A DNA stretch of 60,899 nt from Caldithrix abyssi (GTDB lineage Bacteria; Calditrichota; Calditrichia; Calditrichales; Calditrichaceae). Positions 40,974-48,013 of the stretch are shown one piece after another (within the stretch, counting starts at the first letter, position 1; every line of letters begins with the position of its first letter). The notes under the pieces are model-generated. The model ran no database searches. It had not been told where the DNA came from and worked only from the letters and a program-made list of their open reading frames with translations. The stretch is from assembly GCA_011369465.1 (NCBI GenBank), contig DRQG01000067.1, positions 1-60,899 of the forward strand. The letters run 5' to 3'. The translations under genes and the position numbers were made by a program.

Positions 40974-42647
40974 TTATTTCAAAGCCCAAATCGCTTCATA
41001 GGCCCGGTTTTTTTCTTCCGTTTTAATTTTATGAATGCCCGTTTCCAGCGCTTTCATCAGTTCTTTTTCACGGATCACATTGGGCAGCACGTCCATCAAA
41101 TAATCGGCGTTCATTTTTGCCTGCTCAAGAGGCATACCGCTGCCGTGCACCAAACCCTGCAGATAGATGGTCGGGCCGGCTTTGTACCCGTTGGGCGGGC
41201 CGGAAATACGGATGCTCATACGCGGTGTCAGTGAAAACGATTCCCAGGGCATTTCCAGGTCAATGGTTACGGCGATCAGGCCGTCCACGCCCAGTTCCCG
41301 GATCAGACGCGCGTCCTTACGGTCCCAGGCAAAAGTGGTGGAAATATCATTGAGAATTTCGGTGAAGGTGGTGGGGATCAGGTTCTTTGTGCCCTTATAG
41401 CTCTTTTCCACTTCAACAACCGATACTTTATCTTTAATGGGCGCCAGCTCTTTGTAAGACGGCGCCCGAAGGACATCCTCGACGGGTATCAGTTCGATAT
41501 CATAATTGTTCTTCAATACTCGTTCAAAATCCGCGTAAAGCTTATTAACCAGATTCTCCCAGTAATCGTCGGGCAGTGTGGGAAAAGTGCGTGTTGTGGT
41601 TGTTGTTGTGGTAGTGGTTACATTTCCGATTGTAGATGAATGGCTTGAGGTTCTTTGTTGCTGCAATTTGGTAGCCCGTACGGTAAAAGAAGCCATGGCG
41701 AATTTCCTGCCGCTGCTCACGGGCCGTCCGAAATAGGCATTGGGTTTATTAAACTCCACCTGCATAAAACCGTCATCTTTTTCCAGCGTCTCCCTGATAT
41801 TTATCGTTTGACCGTCCACGGTACCGACCCAGGTTTCGTCCAGTTCACCCTGTACAGTTACCGGCACGCAATCCAGCGCCTGTCCGATAATTTGTGTGGC
41901 GCCGACGCCTTTAACATTGGCCGGTGTGACGTTAAAACGTTCCACTCTCAGCCAGTTTGAACCGGATATGGGCGCGTAGGGCGTTATGGCGTTTTGCCAC
42001 ATGGCCGCGGGCAGATGCATCTTGTCTGCGTATTTAAACGTACCGTATTCAAGAAAGGAATGAATGCCCATAACAGAGCTGAGCAGAGCGATGCTTATTT
42101 CTTCACCGGGGCGTTGATTTTCGGCTTTAAGTTCAAGGTCCAAAGGTTGGGTAATATCAACAACGGCGTTTTCTTTTTTACCATTGATGCTTTTAATTTT
42201 AATGGGCGGCGGCGGGGTTACCGTAAAAGATACTTCCTGTCCCGTGCTGGTTTTGATGACAACTTTTTTGGGAGAGACGTCATTGGCATCCAGCCACTTG
42301 CCGTAATATCCATTTTTTATGTGCGGCACTACTTCTCCGTCGATGATTACCTGCCCATCCACCTTAAGCATGCCCACGCCATCGCGGTTTAGCAGGCTTA
42401 CATAGACCATATTGGCGCCGTCCCGCCAGGTTTCTTCAAAATACTCTGAGGCAATGTCGTTCGTGGCTTTCGGATAAACGTTGCGCATAAAGAATACAGA
42501 AACCGCCGCTTCGTTCAGATCATTTGTGGTTCCTGTCAAAAAACTGCCGGCGATATTCCCCACCTGCTTCATAATGGAACTGCAACCGGCTAACAAAATT
42601 ATCGCTGATATGATTAACATACCTGTTATTAAAGTCCTTTGCTTCAT
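40974..42647 (-). CDS. Large lipoprotein of unknown function with poly-threonine linker
   Basis: 557 residues. Lipobox LLAGC (Cys22). The body has an N-terminal part with a PEGA-like carboxypeptidase-regulatory sequence (GVGMLKVDGQVIIDGEVVPH) and a middle region up to residue 330. A run of nine Thr flanked by Ser/His (about 345-365, encoded by near-ACN repeats) separates it from a C-terminal domain with RLIRELGVDGLIAVTIDLEM. That last motif recalls the CsgG/TolB-like group of lipoproteins that test for multi-gene dependency; this is weak. It is second in the operon after the small lipoprotein gene. Confidence 0.75.
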   Translation of the reverse strand: MKQRTLITGMLIISAIILLAGCSSIMKQVGNIAGSFLTGTTNDLNEAAVSVFFMRNVYPKATNDIASEYFEETWRDGANMVYVSLLNRDGVGMLKVDGQVIIDGEVVPHIKNGYYGKWLDANDVSPKKVVIKTSTGQEVSFTVTPPPPIKIKSINGKKENAVVDITQPLDLELKAENQRPGEEISIALLSSVMGIHSFLEYGTFKYADKMHLPAAMWQNAITPYAPISGSNWLRVERFNVTPANVKGVGATQIIGQALDCVPVTVQGELDETWVGTVDGQTINIRETLEKDDGFMQVEFNKPNAYFGRPVSSGRKFAMASFTVRATKLQQQRTSSHSSTIGNVTTTTTTTTTRTFPTLPDDYWENLVNKLYADFERVLKNNYDIELIPVEDVLRAPSYKELAPIKDKVSVVEVEKSYKGTKNLIPTTFTEILNDISTTFAWDRKDARLIRELGVDGLIAVTIDLEMPWESFSLTPRMSIRISGPPNGYKAGPTIYLQGLVHGSGMPLEQAKMNADYLMDVLPNVIREKELMKALETGIHKIKTEEKNRAYEAIWALK

Positions 42648-42736: not shown

Positions 42737-43123
42737 TTAAGGTGTAAAATCCGTATAGCCGGTTTTACCGTCAAGAAGCGTGACCGACACCCTGTATTCA
42801 ACGCCGGAGGCCAGTGTAATTTCTGCTGTTGCAGTAGCCACAGCGCCTGTCGGGACAGCGCCATGTTTCGCAGGCGAAGCAATGTTGCCCTGCCCGGGAG
42901 TCGCTATTCCCCAGACGATTACCGTGGGTTCCGAGGTACGCACAACGCTGACGCTGAAGGCCTTGCCGACCGTCCATGAATATTCCGGTTTGGTACCGCT
43001 GCCGACGGTTACTTTAAAATCACCGTTCGCGGTTGAAGCGGTCGGATTGTCTTTTTCAGAACACGCTGTAACCATAAAAATGGATATTATCGCAACAAAT
43101 ATAAATGTTTTCCTGAAACACAT
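42737..43123 (-). CDS. Small lipoprotein, possibly carbohydrate- or ligand-binding beta domain
   Basis: 128 residues from ATG 43123, chosen for AAGGAGG 7 bases upstream (the open frame extends to 43192). Lipobox VTAC with Cys at about 21, then SEKDNPTAS. The rest is Ala/Val/Thr-rich and looks like a single beta-sandwich (ATATAEITLASGVEYRVSVT). No family recognised. It is first gene of a two-gene lipoprotein operon (89-base gap to the next) with the 20-base dyad S1 68 bases before its start. Confidence 0.7.
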   Translation of the reverse strand: MCFRKTFIFVAIISIFMVTACSEKDNPTASTANGDFKVTVGSGTKPEYSWTVGKAFSVSVVRTSEPTVIVWGIATPGQGNIASPAKHGAVPTGAVATATAEITLASGVEYRVSVTLLDGKTGYTDFTP

Positions 43124-43190
43124 GGTATGCCTCCTTTTGTGAGTGGTAAAATGATTTAGTGTAAAGATAGACAGACGGAATTGGCTTGAC

Positions 43191-43210
43191 AATACGGCAT
43201 TTGACGTATT
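43191..43210. promoter_or_regulatory. 20-bp dyad S1, candidate regulator site upstream of the lipoprotein operon
   Basis: AATACGGCATTTGACGTATT. Aligned with S2 (44239-44258) and S3 (46585-46604) it shares at least 16 of 20 positions with each. The two halves are near inverted copies (AATASGGCA against AATASGKCA). Confidence 0.65.
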
Positions 43211-43377
43211 TAAGGTCGGTATATCACATCCAAAGCCGGGAAAGGGATTTCACAAAGAGAAAAGGTGGATAAAATTACGGTTAGATGCATTGCTGTCCAA
43301 AATAAATTAATGTAAGCAAAATTTGTATTGTTTTTAAAAGAGTTAAATGCCTTTAAAAGCCATCAATAAGTTCAGGC

Positions 43378-43496
43378 CGTTTTAACCCACCCCTGCCTGC
43401 CGCAGGCACGGCCTAACCCCTCCGTTGGAGGGGAATCATATTTCCCCTCTCGGGAGGGGATTAAGCCTGCGCGCCGTGGCGTGGGGTGGGTTTAAA
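43378..43496. repeat. MITE-like long inverted repeat (about 115 bp)
   Basis: Outer arms TTTAACCCACCCC (from 43381) and GGGGTGGGTTTAAA (ends about 43496), inner arms AACCCCTCC...GGAGGGGAAT and TTTCCCCTCTCGGGAGGGGA. The halves of the element pair along most of its length. Between the lipoprotein and regulator genes there is no other ORF in 43211-43537. Confidence 0.85.
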
Positions 43497-43537
43497 CTTT
43501 GATAACATTAACATAATTTATTTTGAACAAGTATGGG

Positions 43538-44194
43538 TTAGATGAGTTTGTGTTTTTGTGCCAGAAGCACGGCTTCTATTTTATTGTGAACGTGCAGTTT
43601 TCTATAGATGTTTTCGATATGTTTACGAACGGTTGAAGGGGAGACAAATAAGGTGTTGGCAATTTTTTGATAATCGAGTCCCTGGCTTATATGTTCCAAT
43701 ACTTCAACTTCCCTCCTGGTCAAAGTGATCTCTTGTCGTGCTTCCGGTTCTTGCACGCTGGAAGGATTTCTTAACAGGTTCAAAGTTTTTGCCGCGATGC
43801 TTGGAGACATGGGCGCCCCGCCATCCCGGATGGATTTGATTCCATCGACGATAACCCCGGCGGGTTCATCTTTAAGCAAGTAGCCGTTTGCCCCGGCCTG
43901 TATGGCCCGGAATATTTTATCCTCATCGTCAAAAACGGTGAGCATAACAATCCTGATTTCTGGATAGTTTTTTTTTACCTCGGCGGTAGCTTCGATACCG
44001 TCCATGTCCGGCATCTCTATATCCATCAGGATTACGTCAATATCCGGGTCGTTTTCAAGCTGCTTTAAAAGCGCAACGCCGTTTAGCGCGTGAAACTTAA
44101 ACGTAACCACATCGTCGAAGATAGCAAGTTTATCCCGGATAGCCTCAGCCAGTCTTTGATTATCTTCCGCTAATGCAATTTTTATTTTAGTCAT
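43538..44194 (-). CDS. NarL/FixJ-type response regulator
   Basis: 218 residues. Receiver with IALAEDNQRLAEAI, phosphoacceptor Asp58 in VILMDIEMPDMDG, and MLTVFDDEDKIFRAI. The LuxR-type helix-turn-helix has LTRREVEVLEHISQGLDYQK, IANTLFVSPSTVRKHIENIY and RKLHVHNKIEAVL. It is downstream of the TPR kinase on the same strand with a 102-base gap, and that gap holds the dyad S2, so self-regulation is plausible. Confidence 0.92.
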   Translation of the reverse strand: MTKIKIALAEDNQRLAEAIRDKLAIFDDVVTFKFHALNGVALLKQLENDPDIDVILMDIEMPDMDGIEATAEVKKNYPEIRIVMLTVFDDEDKIFRAIQAGANGYLLKDEPAGVIVDGIKSIRDGGAPMSPSIAAKTLNLLRNPSSVQEPEARQEITLTRREVEVLEHISQGLDYQKIANTLFVSPSTVRKHIENIYRKLHVHNKIEAVLLAQKHKLI

Positions 44195-44238
44195 TTTTTA
44201 CTCCGGTCTGATATGTACGCACTTTGATGGAAAAAAAC

Positions 44239-44258
44239 CATAGGGCATATGACCTATT
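44239..44258. promoter_or_regulatory. 20-bp dyad S2, candidate regulator site upstream of the NarL-type gene
   Basis: CATAGGGCATATGACCTATT, 44 bases before the ATG of the regulator gene. Core ATAGG..CCTAT is palindromic. Confidence 0.65.
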
Positions 44259-44296
44259 TTTGACTTGATCAGGGGCTTGGGAAACCAAAAAATGAA

Positions 44297-46036
44297 TTAG
44301 TTCATCGTCATTTTAACAATGGTGCCTTTGGAAGATGTATCTATGCTGAAGTTGCAACCGGATTCTTCACAACGCGCGCGCATGTTGACCAGGCCATTGC
44401 CCCCGGAAGCCGCACTCAAATCAAAACCTTTCCCGTCATCCTCTATCGTAATTTTCAGACGATGTTCCTGCTGCGAAAATGTAATTGTTATTTGGTTTGC
44501 ATCGGCATATTTAACCGCATTTTGAACGGCTTCCTGCACCAGACGGTAAAAGTTAAGCATTTGCGTGGACGAAAGCTGTAAAGGGGTTGATAAATTTTTT
44601 ACTACTTTTATCTCGGGGCGTTCAATACCGGAATTAATTTTTTGCTTTAGTTCGTTTATTTTCAGCACCAATTTGTCCGCGCTGCCATTTTCTTTTTGGA
44701 TGGCCCAGATGGAGTTGCGCAGGTCATCGATGGTTTCTCTGCCAAGGGAGCTAAGTTTTTTTAAACGATCCAAAAGGGCTGTGTTTTTTACCTCGTATTC
44801 CAGATTATCGATTGAACTGATCATAAAAGTAAGATTGGAACCGATGTTATCGTGTAATTCCCGGGAGATGTGCAGTTTTTCATCGCTGATCTTTTTCTCC
44901 AGGGCGGCCTGCTTTAATTTGTTATTATATTCCAGTTCCTGCTTTAATCGAGATTGTCTTTGCCTGTAATACCAAAAAGAAAAAAGAAGCGTTCCCAGGA
45001 TAATCACCACCACACCCACTAAAATGATCAATTGCAGTGATTTATTCTTAAGTTCCAGTTTATGTTGTTTGATTATGCGGTCCTTCTTTTCCGTTTCGAA
45101 AGCAACCTGTAATTCGGAAATTTTTGTATTTGTTCTTTCGTTCAGCAGGCTATCCTTATAGAGTGTATATTTTTTAAAACTTTGTAAGGCGGCTTTGGGT
45201 CTGTTCAGTTTTTCGTTCACTTCAGACAACTGTTGATAGCAATATTGAATCAAATAGGGTTGCCCTAACTTTTTTCCTTTCTGAATTGCCTGCTCAAAAT
45301 ATAAAATGGCGGATTCATATTGTTTCATCATCATATTCAACTCACCACGGATTGCCAGGTTTTCGGCCAAGCCATATTCATCATGTATTATTGAGCGTAT
45401 TTTGTCCGACTTCTTTAAATAATTCAAGGCCGTTTTAAAATCCCCTTTACCTGCATAAATACCCATCATTTTATTAAGGCTGTAAGGAATGCCAACGCTA
45501 TCTTTCAATGTATATTTTATCTGCAAAGATTTTTTATAATAAAAAAGAGCGCTGTCTGTTTTGCCTGTTGATTCGATGATGAGGCCATAGTTGTCATACA
45601 GCTTGGCCAACGCTTTGGAATAATCAATTTGTTCCGCCAGTTTAATTCCCTTACGCATATAACTTATCGCCGTGGGCAGGTCTCGTTTTCGATTTCGATA
45701 GCCGTATTCTCCATAAAGAATACTCAAATCTTTAGCCGCGTTAAGCTTTTCATAAAGACGGATTGCCTTCAGGGTCGCGTCGATCATCTTATCATAATTG
45801 CCCCTGAATTGTTCGGCAAGAGCGAGCTTATCCAGAGCCCGCGCTTCTCCATATTCATAATGAATAAAGCGGGCCTTTTCTATATTTTCGGAAAAAATTT
45901 TGACGCTTTCTTTTGCGTGAGAGACGATATATTCGTATGGAATGGCATTCACGGAATCCACGTATGCCTTTTCGTTTTCCGCGGCAAATCCAATATGCAC
46001 AAAAAAAGCAGCTATAAAAAAGAGTATAATACGCAT
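44297..46036 (-). CDS. Sensor histidine kinase with periplasmic TPR domain (HisKA_3/NarX class)
   Basis: About 579 residues from ATG 46036 (GGATGG 8 bases upstream; ATG 46045 also possible). The signal peptide ends GFAAE. TPR repeats fill residues about 20-300 (for example LAKLYDNYGLIIESTG, ALNYLKKSDKI, AILYFEQAIQKG). One membrane helix follows (LQLIILVGVVVIILGTLLFS). A coiled coil leads to ISRELHDNIGSNLTFM with the phosphoacceptor His395. The ATPase has QEAVQNAVKYADANQ and DDGKGFD. This TPR plus NarX-type layout is common in Bacteroidota. Its partner is the NarL-type regulator next door. Confidence 0.9.
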   Translation of the reverse strand: MRIILFFIAAFFVHIGFAAENEKAYVDSVNAIPYEYIVSHAKESVKIFSENIEKARFIHYEYGEARALDKLALAEQFRGNYDKMIDATLKAIRLYEKLNAAKDLSILYGEYGYRNRKRDLPTAISYMRKGIKLAEQIDYSKALAKLYDNYGLIIESTGKTDSALFYYKKSLQIKYTLKDSVGIPYSLNKMMGIYAGKGDFKTALNYLKKSDKIRSIIHDEYGLAENLAIRGELNMMMKQYESAILYFEQAIQKGKKLGQPYLIQYCYQQLSEVNEKLNRPKAALQSFKKYTLYKDSLLNERTNTKISELQVAFETEKKDRIIKQHKLELKNKSLQLIILVGVVVIILGTLLFSFWYYRQRQSRLKQELEYNNKLKQAALEKKISDEKLHISRELHDNIGSNLTFMISSIDNLEYEVKNTALLDRLKKLSSLGRETIDDLRNSIWAIQKENGSADKLVLKINELKQKINSGIERPEIKVVKNLSTPLQLSSTQMLNFYRLVQEAVQNAVKYADANQITITFSQQEHRLKITIEDDGKGFDLSAASGGNGLVNMRARCEESGCNFSIDTSSKGTIVKMTMN

Positions 46037-46045
46037 GGATACCAT

Positions 46046-46584
46046 CCAAAAATTGTACAGATATCAGATTTCTGAAGCTGTTCTGCCTTAAAGCCTTTTA
46101 GAATAATCAGCTTCATTTAATGCTGTGATAATTACTGTTACACTACTAAATTTATATTCTCTATTCTCTGTTTCACGCTCTTCACGAGCTTGTTCAAGTT
46201 TTATTCTAAGCTTATGGGACAATATTTTCGGATTGCCGAAATGTCCGATTGCCGGCAGCAAATAATTTATGTATGAATGGAAGTGTTTGTTATTGTGATA
46301 TTCTATCCATTAACCGACTCTTCTTTTTGGCCTCCATAATATTACCATAACTTCGCAGACCTGCTTCTCTTAACCTGCGATGAAATCATGCATCCGGTCC
46401 ATTGTTTTGCGGCTGTTAAGGCCTTATGCGTACATCGTGGAGTCCCCCTTATGGAAGTCCAATGCAGAGCGTTGGGTTGATACGCTGCGGAAGGTTCGGT
46501 AGTCGGGGAATGAGCGGATGCAGCATCTGTTTGCAGCAATATTTTTTCATTATAATTAACTGACTATGATATTGCAAGAAAAAA
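46046..46584. other. Gene-poor stretch between divergent genes
   Basis: No ORF that I trust. CGGATTGCCG and CCGATTGCCGG occur as near-direct repeats at about 46231-46256. The higher-GC part 46370-46520 has short open frames on both strands without a recognisable family and could be a decayed gene. Confidence 0.4.
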
Positions 46585-46604
46585 AATAGGGCATTTGCCG
46601 TATT
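46585..46604. promoter_or_regulatory. 20-bp dyad S3, candidate regulator site upstream of the T9SS propeller gene
   Basis: AATAGGGCATTTGCCGTATT, 117 bases before ATG 46721 on the plus strand. It differs from S1 at two positions and from S2 at four. Confidence 0.65.
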
Positions 46605-46720
46605 GTAATCATCTTGCCCGCCATCTATTTTTTACCCCAGCAGTGAGACGTGGCCGCCGGTTATGCCTTGCACAACCACGAACACAACGTATACAATCAA
46701 ATAAAAATGGAGGGTGCATC

Positions 46721-48013
46721 ATGAAGATTTTATTAATGCTGCTTAGTGTAATAATAACAGCCTCGCCGATATTTTCACAATGGGTGCCTGTAAATGAATC
46801 CAGTAAGTATTATTATTCTTACATCTTAAAAAGCAATGATGGCGCATTATACGTGGGGGAGGGGGACAATGTTTATAAAAGCACAGATGAAGGAAATACA
46901 TGGACAAATTTAACAAATAATTTTATCATTAATGCCGCTAATTCCAATTGGTATATAGAATTCGCCGGGGATAATATTTTTGTGGGCACCAGCGTTGAAG
47001 GCGTTTATATGAGTCCCGACAAAGGGGCCACATGGCAATATGACAATGAAGGATTGGAAAATGTTAAGCAGGTCGATCTGCTGTATTCCGATGGTATTAA
47101 AATATTTTCCAGCATGGGTTGGCCAACCTACGGTTTTTATCAGAAAACCGCGGCGGCGGGGCAATGGGTGCGGGTGGATAGCAGTGATATTGGCACGACG
47201 TATGGAACACAAGTTACCGGTTTGACCAAAATGGACAATCTTTACTACGCCTGCACCCGTTCAGATGGAGTTTACGAGTCGTCTGACGGAGAAAACTGGA
47301 CAAAAAAAACCAATTCCGGCTATCCTGCGGAGGTCGCTTCTTTTTCGTTTACGAGCAACAGAATTGTATCCATCGGATCCACTTTGTTCATCGCAACCAA
47401 TGATGGTATTTTTAAGTCTGTCGATCAGGCCGAAAGCTGGACGCGTACGGATAAAGGATTTGCGCAATGGGACGGACTCGGTACGGTGCCTATTATGAAG
47501 CTTTATGCGCATAAAAATAGTTTGTATGCCACAATGGGTAAGGATGACTCGGCCTATGTTTCGACGGATCTCGGCGACACCTGGACCGATATCAGCGACG
47601 GACTCGGTCATTATATTATTTCGCTCACCGTGCATAACAATTATCTTTATGGCGCCCAATGGGACAGGGATAGTTCACTGGTCAGAAGGGAAACGACCGT
47701 CGGTTTAATACATGAAAACAAGGAGAAAATGCCCGCTGTCTTCCAATTATCTCAAAACTACCCCAATCCGTTTAACCCTTCAACAACCATTCAATACACT
47801 GTTCCCGCATCGCTAAAAAGGAATGTGCTATTGGTAAACATAAGCGTATTCAATATGCTTGGCGAAAAGGTGGCCACATTGGTAAACGAAGACAAAATGC
47901 CGGGCAATTATGAGGTAAATTTTGATGCGTCCAACCTGGCAAGCGGACTATATTTTTATAAACTGACTGCAGGTCAAAATACGATTACGAAGAAAATGAT
48001 CCTGTCGAAATAA
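46721..48013 (+). CDS. Secreted Asp-box propeller protein with T9SS sorting domain
   Basis: 430 residues from ATG 46721, fixed by GGAGGGT 5 bases upstream. Signal peptide ends IFSQ. Asp-box motifs: STDEGNTW, SPDKGATW, SSDGENW, SVDQAESW, STDLGDTW. C-terminal type A sorting domain: LSQNYPNPFNPSTTIQY, FNMLGEKVATLVN, final KKMILSK. It has the same domain layout as 10423-11727 but normal base composition. It is divergent from the TPR kinase gene and preceded by dyad S3, so it may be a target of that system. Confidence 0.88.
   Translation: MKILLMLLSVIITASPIFSQWVPVNESSKYYYSYILKSNDGALYVGEGDNVYKSTDEGNTWTNLTNNFIINAANSNWYIEFAGDNIFVGTSVEGVYMSPDKGATWQYDNEGLENVKQVDLLYSDGIKIFSSMGWPTYGFYQKTAAAGQWVRVDSSDIGTTYGTQVTGLTKMDNLYYACTRSDGVYESSDGENWTKKTNSGYPAEVASFSFTSNRIVSIGSTLFIATNDGIFKSVDQAESWTRTDKGFAQWDGLGTVPIMKLYAHKNSLYATMGKDDSAYVSTDLGDTWTDISDGLGHYIISLTVHNNYLYGAQWDRDSSLVRRETTVGLIHENKEKMPAVFQLSQNYPNPFNPSTTIQYTVPASLKRNVLLVNISVFNMLGEKVATLVNEDKMPGNYEVNFDASNLASGLYFYKLTAGQNTITKKMILSK

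Follow-up and report, generated by a model that had tools for sequence, protein, structure and literature searches.

Probable operators of a NarL-type regulator paired with a TPR kinase at an envelope-protein locus of Caldithrix abyssi

Organization of the locus

The DNA analysed, here called the window, is a stretch of 60,899 nucleotides from Caldithrix abyssi (contig C67 of genome G000). On its minus strand a sensor kinase gene is followed by dyad B, a response regulator gene, dyad A and the lipoprotein genes lip1 and lip2, which form an operon with lip2 as the second gene behind dyad A. Dyad C, on the plus strand, precedes the divergent gene of a propeller protein with a type IX secretion (T9SS) tail.

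40974..42647, minus strand: lip2, large lipoprotein of 557 aa, encoded second in the operon
42737..43123, minus strand: lip1, small lipoprotein of 128 aa, first gene of the operon
43191..43210, minus strand: dyad A, AATACGTCAAATGCCGTATT on this strand, candidate operator of the lipoprotein operon
43538..44194, minus strand: NarL/FixJ-type response regulator, Response_reg and GerE domains, presumed activator
44239..44258, minus strand: dyad B, AATAGGTCATATGCCCTATG on this strand, in the kinase–regulator gap, predicted promoter of the regulator itself
44297..46045, minus strand: sensor kinase with N-terminal signal/TM segment, TPR repeats, TM segment, HisKA_3 and HATPase_c
46585..46604, plus strand: dyad C, AATAGGGCATTTGCCGTATT, candidate operator of the T9SS-tail gene
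46721..48013, plus strand: secreted sortilin/BNR-type propeller protein with T9SS C-terminal sorting domain, from domain matches

The regulator combines a receiver domain (PF00072, 4.4e-21) with a GerE/LuxR-type helix-turn-helix (PF00196, 3.9e-18), and the neighbouring kinase carries the HisKA_3 (PF07730, 1.9e-8) and HATPase_c (PF02518, 2.7e-9) domains of a partner kinase. In the kinase, TPR_12 (residues 119-177) precedes a hydrophobic segment (around 338-357) and HisKA_3 (389-451), and the TPR sensor is predicted to be periplasmic. No Pfam family was matched by lip1 or lip2. The predicted structure of lip2 (mean pLDDT 62.5, pTM 0.46) gave PDB matches with TM scores below 0.2 on the query, which are unusable, and comparison of its C-terminus with the target family of loci L083 and L118 returned an hhalign E of 0.003 at a probability of 10%.

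The three 20-mers described in the initial annotation were found at 43191, 44239 and 46585 as partial palindromes, with 8 of 10 complementary pairs in each. Their placement in promoters, also proposed there, holds as well: the centre of dyad A lies 77 bp upstream of the lip1 ATG (43123), dyad B 54 bp upstream of the regulator ATG (44194) and dyad C 126 bp upstream of the T9SS-tail gene's ATG (46721). No further copy had been seen in the window by eye, which agrees with a matrix built from the three dyads that scores 28-30 bits at their own places and 10 at the runner-up place in the whole window. None of 20 simulated windows of equal dinucleotide make-up had a dyad accompanied by two others of 15/20 identity, a combination present in the real window. 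Separately, the stretch 43380-43500 between lip1 and the regulator contains a large inverted repeat, imperfect and with abundant CCCCTC/GAGGGG, that resembles a dispersed intergenic repeat.

Across the 4.31-Mb genome the 20-base pattern with zero or one mismatch occurs just at dyads A, B and C. Matches with two or three mismatches are equally frequent for the pattern (17/13) and for a reversed-pattern control (16/15), and all 19 that were inspected fall within ORFs. An excess of equal-scoring matches in coding regions, which the initial annotation regarded as evidence against the sites, is thus not present in this genome. The additional matches (on contigs C4, C19, C117, C143, C153 and others) were discarded since they lie in ORFs and occur at control level. 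Because no other matches rise above that level, the regulon in the window genome looks small, with three promoters in 3.4 kb.

Conservation of the regulator, kinase and dyad

With the regulator as query against sixty related genomes, three clear orthologues were found (58-63% identity; genomes G011, G009 and G019), and in all three a dyad lies between the kinase and regulator genes. G011 also keeps the order kinase, regulator, lipoprotein, lip2, with a dyad ahead of each of the three downstream genes. Scanning of named genomes added another 80 loci; most are from Bacteroidota (50-61% identity), and a KSB1 bacterium is among them. Strong copies of the dyad are present in 50 of these 80 loci (Bacteroidota, KSB1), mostly intergenic, and the dyad stands upstream of the regulator gene at loci L062-L064 as well as at 32 of the 80 further loci. 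Recurrence of the site upstream of orthologues, expected by the initial annotation if the dyads are functional, is therefore seen in G011, G009, G019, KSB1 and many Bacteroidota. Refinement of the matrix gave the consensus AATAcGgCAwwTGcCgTATT. In 84 loci, the window included, only 12 of the 114 sites scoring at least 20 fall in ORFs of at least 150 aa, which make up 87% of the DNA.

The 82 sampled relatives of the regulator form one clade apart from ten paralogues (support 100/99), and a TPR kinase was detected at 79 of 87 regulator loci. At 30 of the 80 further loci the strict motif was not found; about 20 of these carry the degenerate form AATACG-N8-CGTATT, and at the Algoriphagus locus no form of the dyad was found. 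Several Flavobacteriaceae (L138, L131, L106, L113, L088 and others) have another form of the dyad, AATACGTAATTCnTCGTATT, in place of the main motif and at unchanged spacing to TAnnTTT. This form is possibly a co-evolved variant of the operator.

The dyad also co-occurs with the regulator. Within the phylum of the window, exact dyads are confined to the four genomes that carry the regulator; the other 36 have none. Among 198 genomes sampled from the class Bacteroidia the site was found in 19 of 22 genomes with the regulator vs 31 of 176 without it (Fisher p=1.9e-10), with site totals of 65 and 37, respectively (all counted by hand). A genome was scored as lacking the regulator if it had no match at E<=1e-50, so a diverged orthologue may be present in some genomes of this group. 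In 30 genomes chosen for the presence of the pair, 107 forward sites compare with 7 of the reversed pattern (summed by hand). Here the dyads frequently lie within 10 kb of the pair, and in several genomes (e.g. G072, G075) all of them are within about 10 kb of the regulator.

A promoter box at fixed spacing

Each of the three window dyads is followed at an offset of +22 by a box that starts with TA.

43162..43169, minus strand: −10/−7-like box TATCTTTA, beginning 22 nt after dyad A
44210..44217, minus strand: −10-like box TACATATC, at +22 from dyad B, a weak −10
46626..46633, plus strand: −10-like box TATTTTTT, at +22 from dyad C

For dyads A and C, a −35-like hexamer (TTGTCA and TTGTAA, respectively) overlaps the end of the dyad and is separated from the box by a 17-nt spacer. 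When the sequences following 110 Bacteroidota sites were aligned, one conserved block emerged, TAnnTTTG, from +22 to +29, which is known as the −7 element of Bacteroidota promoters (PMC7366714). Of 88 Bacteroidota sites, 65 have this element beginning exactly at +22 and 5 have it at +21; it is almost never at other offsets, and on the opposite flank its positions are scattered. A relaxed dyad plus box was observed 107 times vs 0.6 in shuffles. Of the distal sites, which lie on other contigs or far from the pair, 13 of 20 match the box at five or more of six positions at +22.

A matrix of 118 sites shows the half-sites to be TACGGCA heptamers with a 2-bp gap (TACGGCA-nn-TGCCGTA). The dyad centre lies 31.5 bp before the box, near −43, which puts the dyad at a fixed position over the −35/−33 element. 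The −33 element is TTTG in Bacteroides but was not found in F. johnsoniae (PMC7366714). At the +22 spacing the end of the dyad itself occupies the −33 position, and no independent −33 TTTG beyond this end was seen in the aligned Bacteroidota sites.

These geometric data bear on dyad C, for which the initial annotation had considered both flanking genes. Its assignment to the T9SS gene stands, whereas the kinase as a direct target is unsupported: the +22 box is found on the T9SS flank alone, and on the other flank the kinase gene begins 540 bp from the dyad. The kinase is thus a likely partner of the regulator rather than a supported target in this genome.

Target genes

Across relatives, the regulator itself and lip2 are recurring predicted targets, together with small lipoproteins and secreted proteins. 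By a crude rule, 59 of 66 box-bearing targets other than the regulator have a signal-like N-terminus, vs 46% of nearby genes, and of the remaining seven, five are small proteins in which a single hydrophobic segment lies at the N-terminus. The commonest family consists of small lipoproteins of the DUF6252/Riean_0653 type (19 of 77 scanned targets; L074, L083, L085, L091, L096, L103 and others). T9SS-tail proteins account for 10 of the 77, and the kinase itself, which is a target in some Flavobacteria, for 11 of the scanned targets. In Riemerella anatipestifer, most of the hemolysis was reported to be lost when Riean_0653 was hit by a transposon (PMC7881567). The target families and their signal-like N-termini indicate that envelope or surface proteins are under the predicted control of the system.

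The predicted control of lip2 varies among genomes. Orthologues with their own dyad-promoter occur in G011 and in G009, where the gene is distant from the regulator. A Polaribacter homologue (29% over 448 aa, 1e-50), on a contig other than that of its regulator, is preceded by the dyad, 21 nt and TATTTTTG. The lip1 homologue of KSB1 locus L069 (49%) is also dyad-preceded. None of the four lip2 orthologues in G015-G018, where the regulator is absent, has a dyad, nor does lip2 of G019, although that genome retains the regulator and the regulator's dyad. Another distal site in G009 (C20:4653) lacks the promoter geometry and was set aside as probably due to chance.

At the five dyad-less lip2 loci (L198, L199, L200, L203 and L204, from G018, G017, G015, G019 and G016, respectively) lip2 is preceded by a sigma-54-like element, such as TGGCATAACCATTGCT in G018, and by a small ORF that is receiver-like, and in G016 and G019 a gene for an NtrC-type AAA activator lies alongside. 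These arrangements suggest that the control of lip2 has shifted between the sigma-54 and NarL types.

Possible mechanism

The link between the dyads and the NarL-type regulator, put forward earlier from position, is now backed by co-occurrence across genomes and by the fixed spacing to the −7/−10 box. In view of the above, dyads A-C are probably operators of the regulator in an autoregulated, TPR-kinase-paired envelope-protein regulon that is activated from the dyad. In this mechanism the TPR kinase would phosphorylate the regulator encoded next door, after which a regulator dimer would bind the 7-2-7 inverted repeat, flanked by AA/TT, near −43 and over −33/−35. The bound regulator could then recruit RNA polymerase in a class II-type activation and thereby switch on its own gene, the lip1-lip2 operon and the gene of the T9SS-secreted propeller protein. 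In relatives it would control a variable set of lipoproteins and exported proteins in which lip2 and the regulator recur. The cue would be an envelope signal read by the periplasmic TPRs; such a sensor suggests an envelope or peptide signal.

A repressor could also be envisaged, with the dimer on a dyad that overlaps −33/−35 blocking RNA polymerase, and the overlap of the dyad end with the −35-like TTGTCA and TTGTAA in two window promoters would fit this. However, a repressor could work without a fixed phase, whereas most Bacteroidota sites have the box exactly at +22, and such a constant phase at many unrelated promoters argues for an activator that contacts RNA polymerase. There is also no separate −33 TTTG apart from the dyad's end, and NarL-family regulators activate from such a position (PMC9314961). 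Repression is therefore considered unlikely.

The dyads might instead be read by another protein, such as a NarL paralogue or a global regulator, the proximity of the pair being a genomic habit. The window genome encodes about 50 other NarL-like regulators (response-regulator matches), and paralogous NarL-type loci hold variant dyads in the same frame (AATAGAACATTTGTTCTATT and AATACCGTATATGCGGTATT), so paralogues can read such sites. Yet the dyads come and go with the regulator in two phyla, one of them lies in the regulator's own promoter, and in several genomes every site is close to the regulator, which makes a different reader very unlikely. That the dyads are a short dispersed repeat, or chance, with no regulatory role has a negligible probability: short repeats in two or three copies are common in intergenic DNA, but the simulations, conservation, spacing and co-occurrence oppose this explanation and the conserved dyad-box geometry refutes it.

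Comparison with known systems

The closest characterised relative is FimS/FimR of Porphyromonas gingivalis. FimS is a membrane kinase with a periplasmic TPR sensor between two TM helices, and FimR directly binds promoters and activates the surface-structure genes mfa1 and pg2130 (PMC11053733, PMC1974823). The window kinase shares the TPR sensor, predicted to be periplasmic, followed by a TM segment and HisKA_3. However, it scores 57.8 bits on the NCBI FimS model against a cut-off of 600, and the targets in the window are lipoproteins and T9SS-tail proteins rather than fimbrial genes. Neither a palindrome nor an inverted repeat is mentioned in the mfa1 paper for comparison.

The operator of E. 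coli NarL/NarP consists of inverted heptamers with a 2-bp gap, a 7-2-7 layout (PMC9314961, PMC2718512), and one NarL site of this layout suffices for activation when its centre is at −44.5, which is 32 bp upstream of the −10 (PMC9314961). The window system has a NarL-type regulator and the same layout, and the heptamers of both start with TAC. The systems differ in that the window has the heptamer TACGGCA and a TPR sensor, whereas NarL has its own heptamer and a nitrate sensor. The window regulator scores 113.8 bits against the NarL cut-off of 250.

Envelope-stress systems of the LiaSR/VraSR type combine a HisKA_3 kinase with a NarL-type regulator, are autoregulated and have envelope-protein targets. 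The window pair shares these kinase and regulator types, the predicted autoregulation and the envelope-protein targets, but LiaSR/VraSR systems have no TPR sensor and belong to another phylum with other targets. On the LiaS model, which has a cut-off of 450 bits, the window kinase reaches 48.3 bits.

The literature searched, with subscription journals outside its scope, contained no description of the motif, the regulon or a Bacteroidota TPR kinase with a LuxR-type regulator. The predicted regulon appears new, though of a known kind. The proposal of an undescribed system joining kinase, regulator and envelope proteins is supported in this sense; the system is not confined to this organism and occurs in at least two phyla.

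Paralogous dyads and implications

Near-perfect dyads were also observed at the paralogous NarL-type loci L015 and L017 (2288), L020 (1347) and L035 (1332). These dyads, AATAGAACATTTGTTCTATT, AATACCGTATATGCGGTATT and AATACCGGGATCACGGTATT, have the outer frame of the main motif with changed inner bases. In all, four variants with this frame occur at the paralogous loci, vs 0.3 expected in shuffles. Tentatively, and with some doubt, one may consider an ancestral envelope regulon of the FCB group with a common frame, AATA-NNN-CAwwTG-NNN-TATT, 21 nt and the −7 box, in which the inner triplet would be paralogue-specific.

Pairs of a TPR kinase and a NarL-type regulator are plentiful in Bacteroidota and relatives, and to our knowledge the operator is known for almost none of them. 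For one orthologous group, the operator and its promoter geometry are now predicted together with a set of targets (DUF6252/Riean_0653-type proteins, the lip2 family and T9SS cargo), and the pair occurs in the cultured genera Polaribacter, Flavobacterium and Leeuwenhoekiella. The dyad illustrates how a predicted activator site can occupy the −33 position, which is poorly defined in Bacteroidota promoters, and lip2 is a worked case of apparent regulon rewiring. A triplet code, if true, would keep the dozens of TPR-kinase/NarL pairs per genome insulated from each other and make their targets assignable from DNA.
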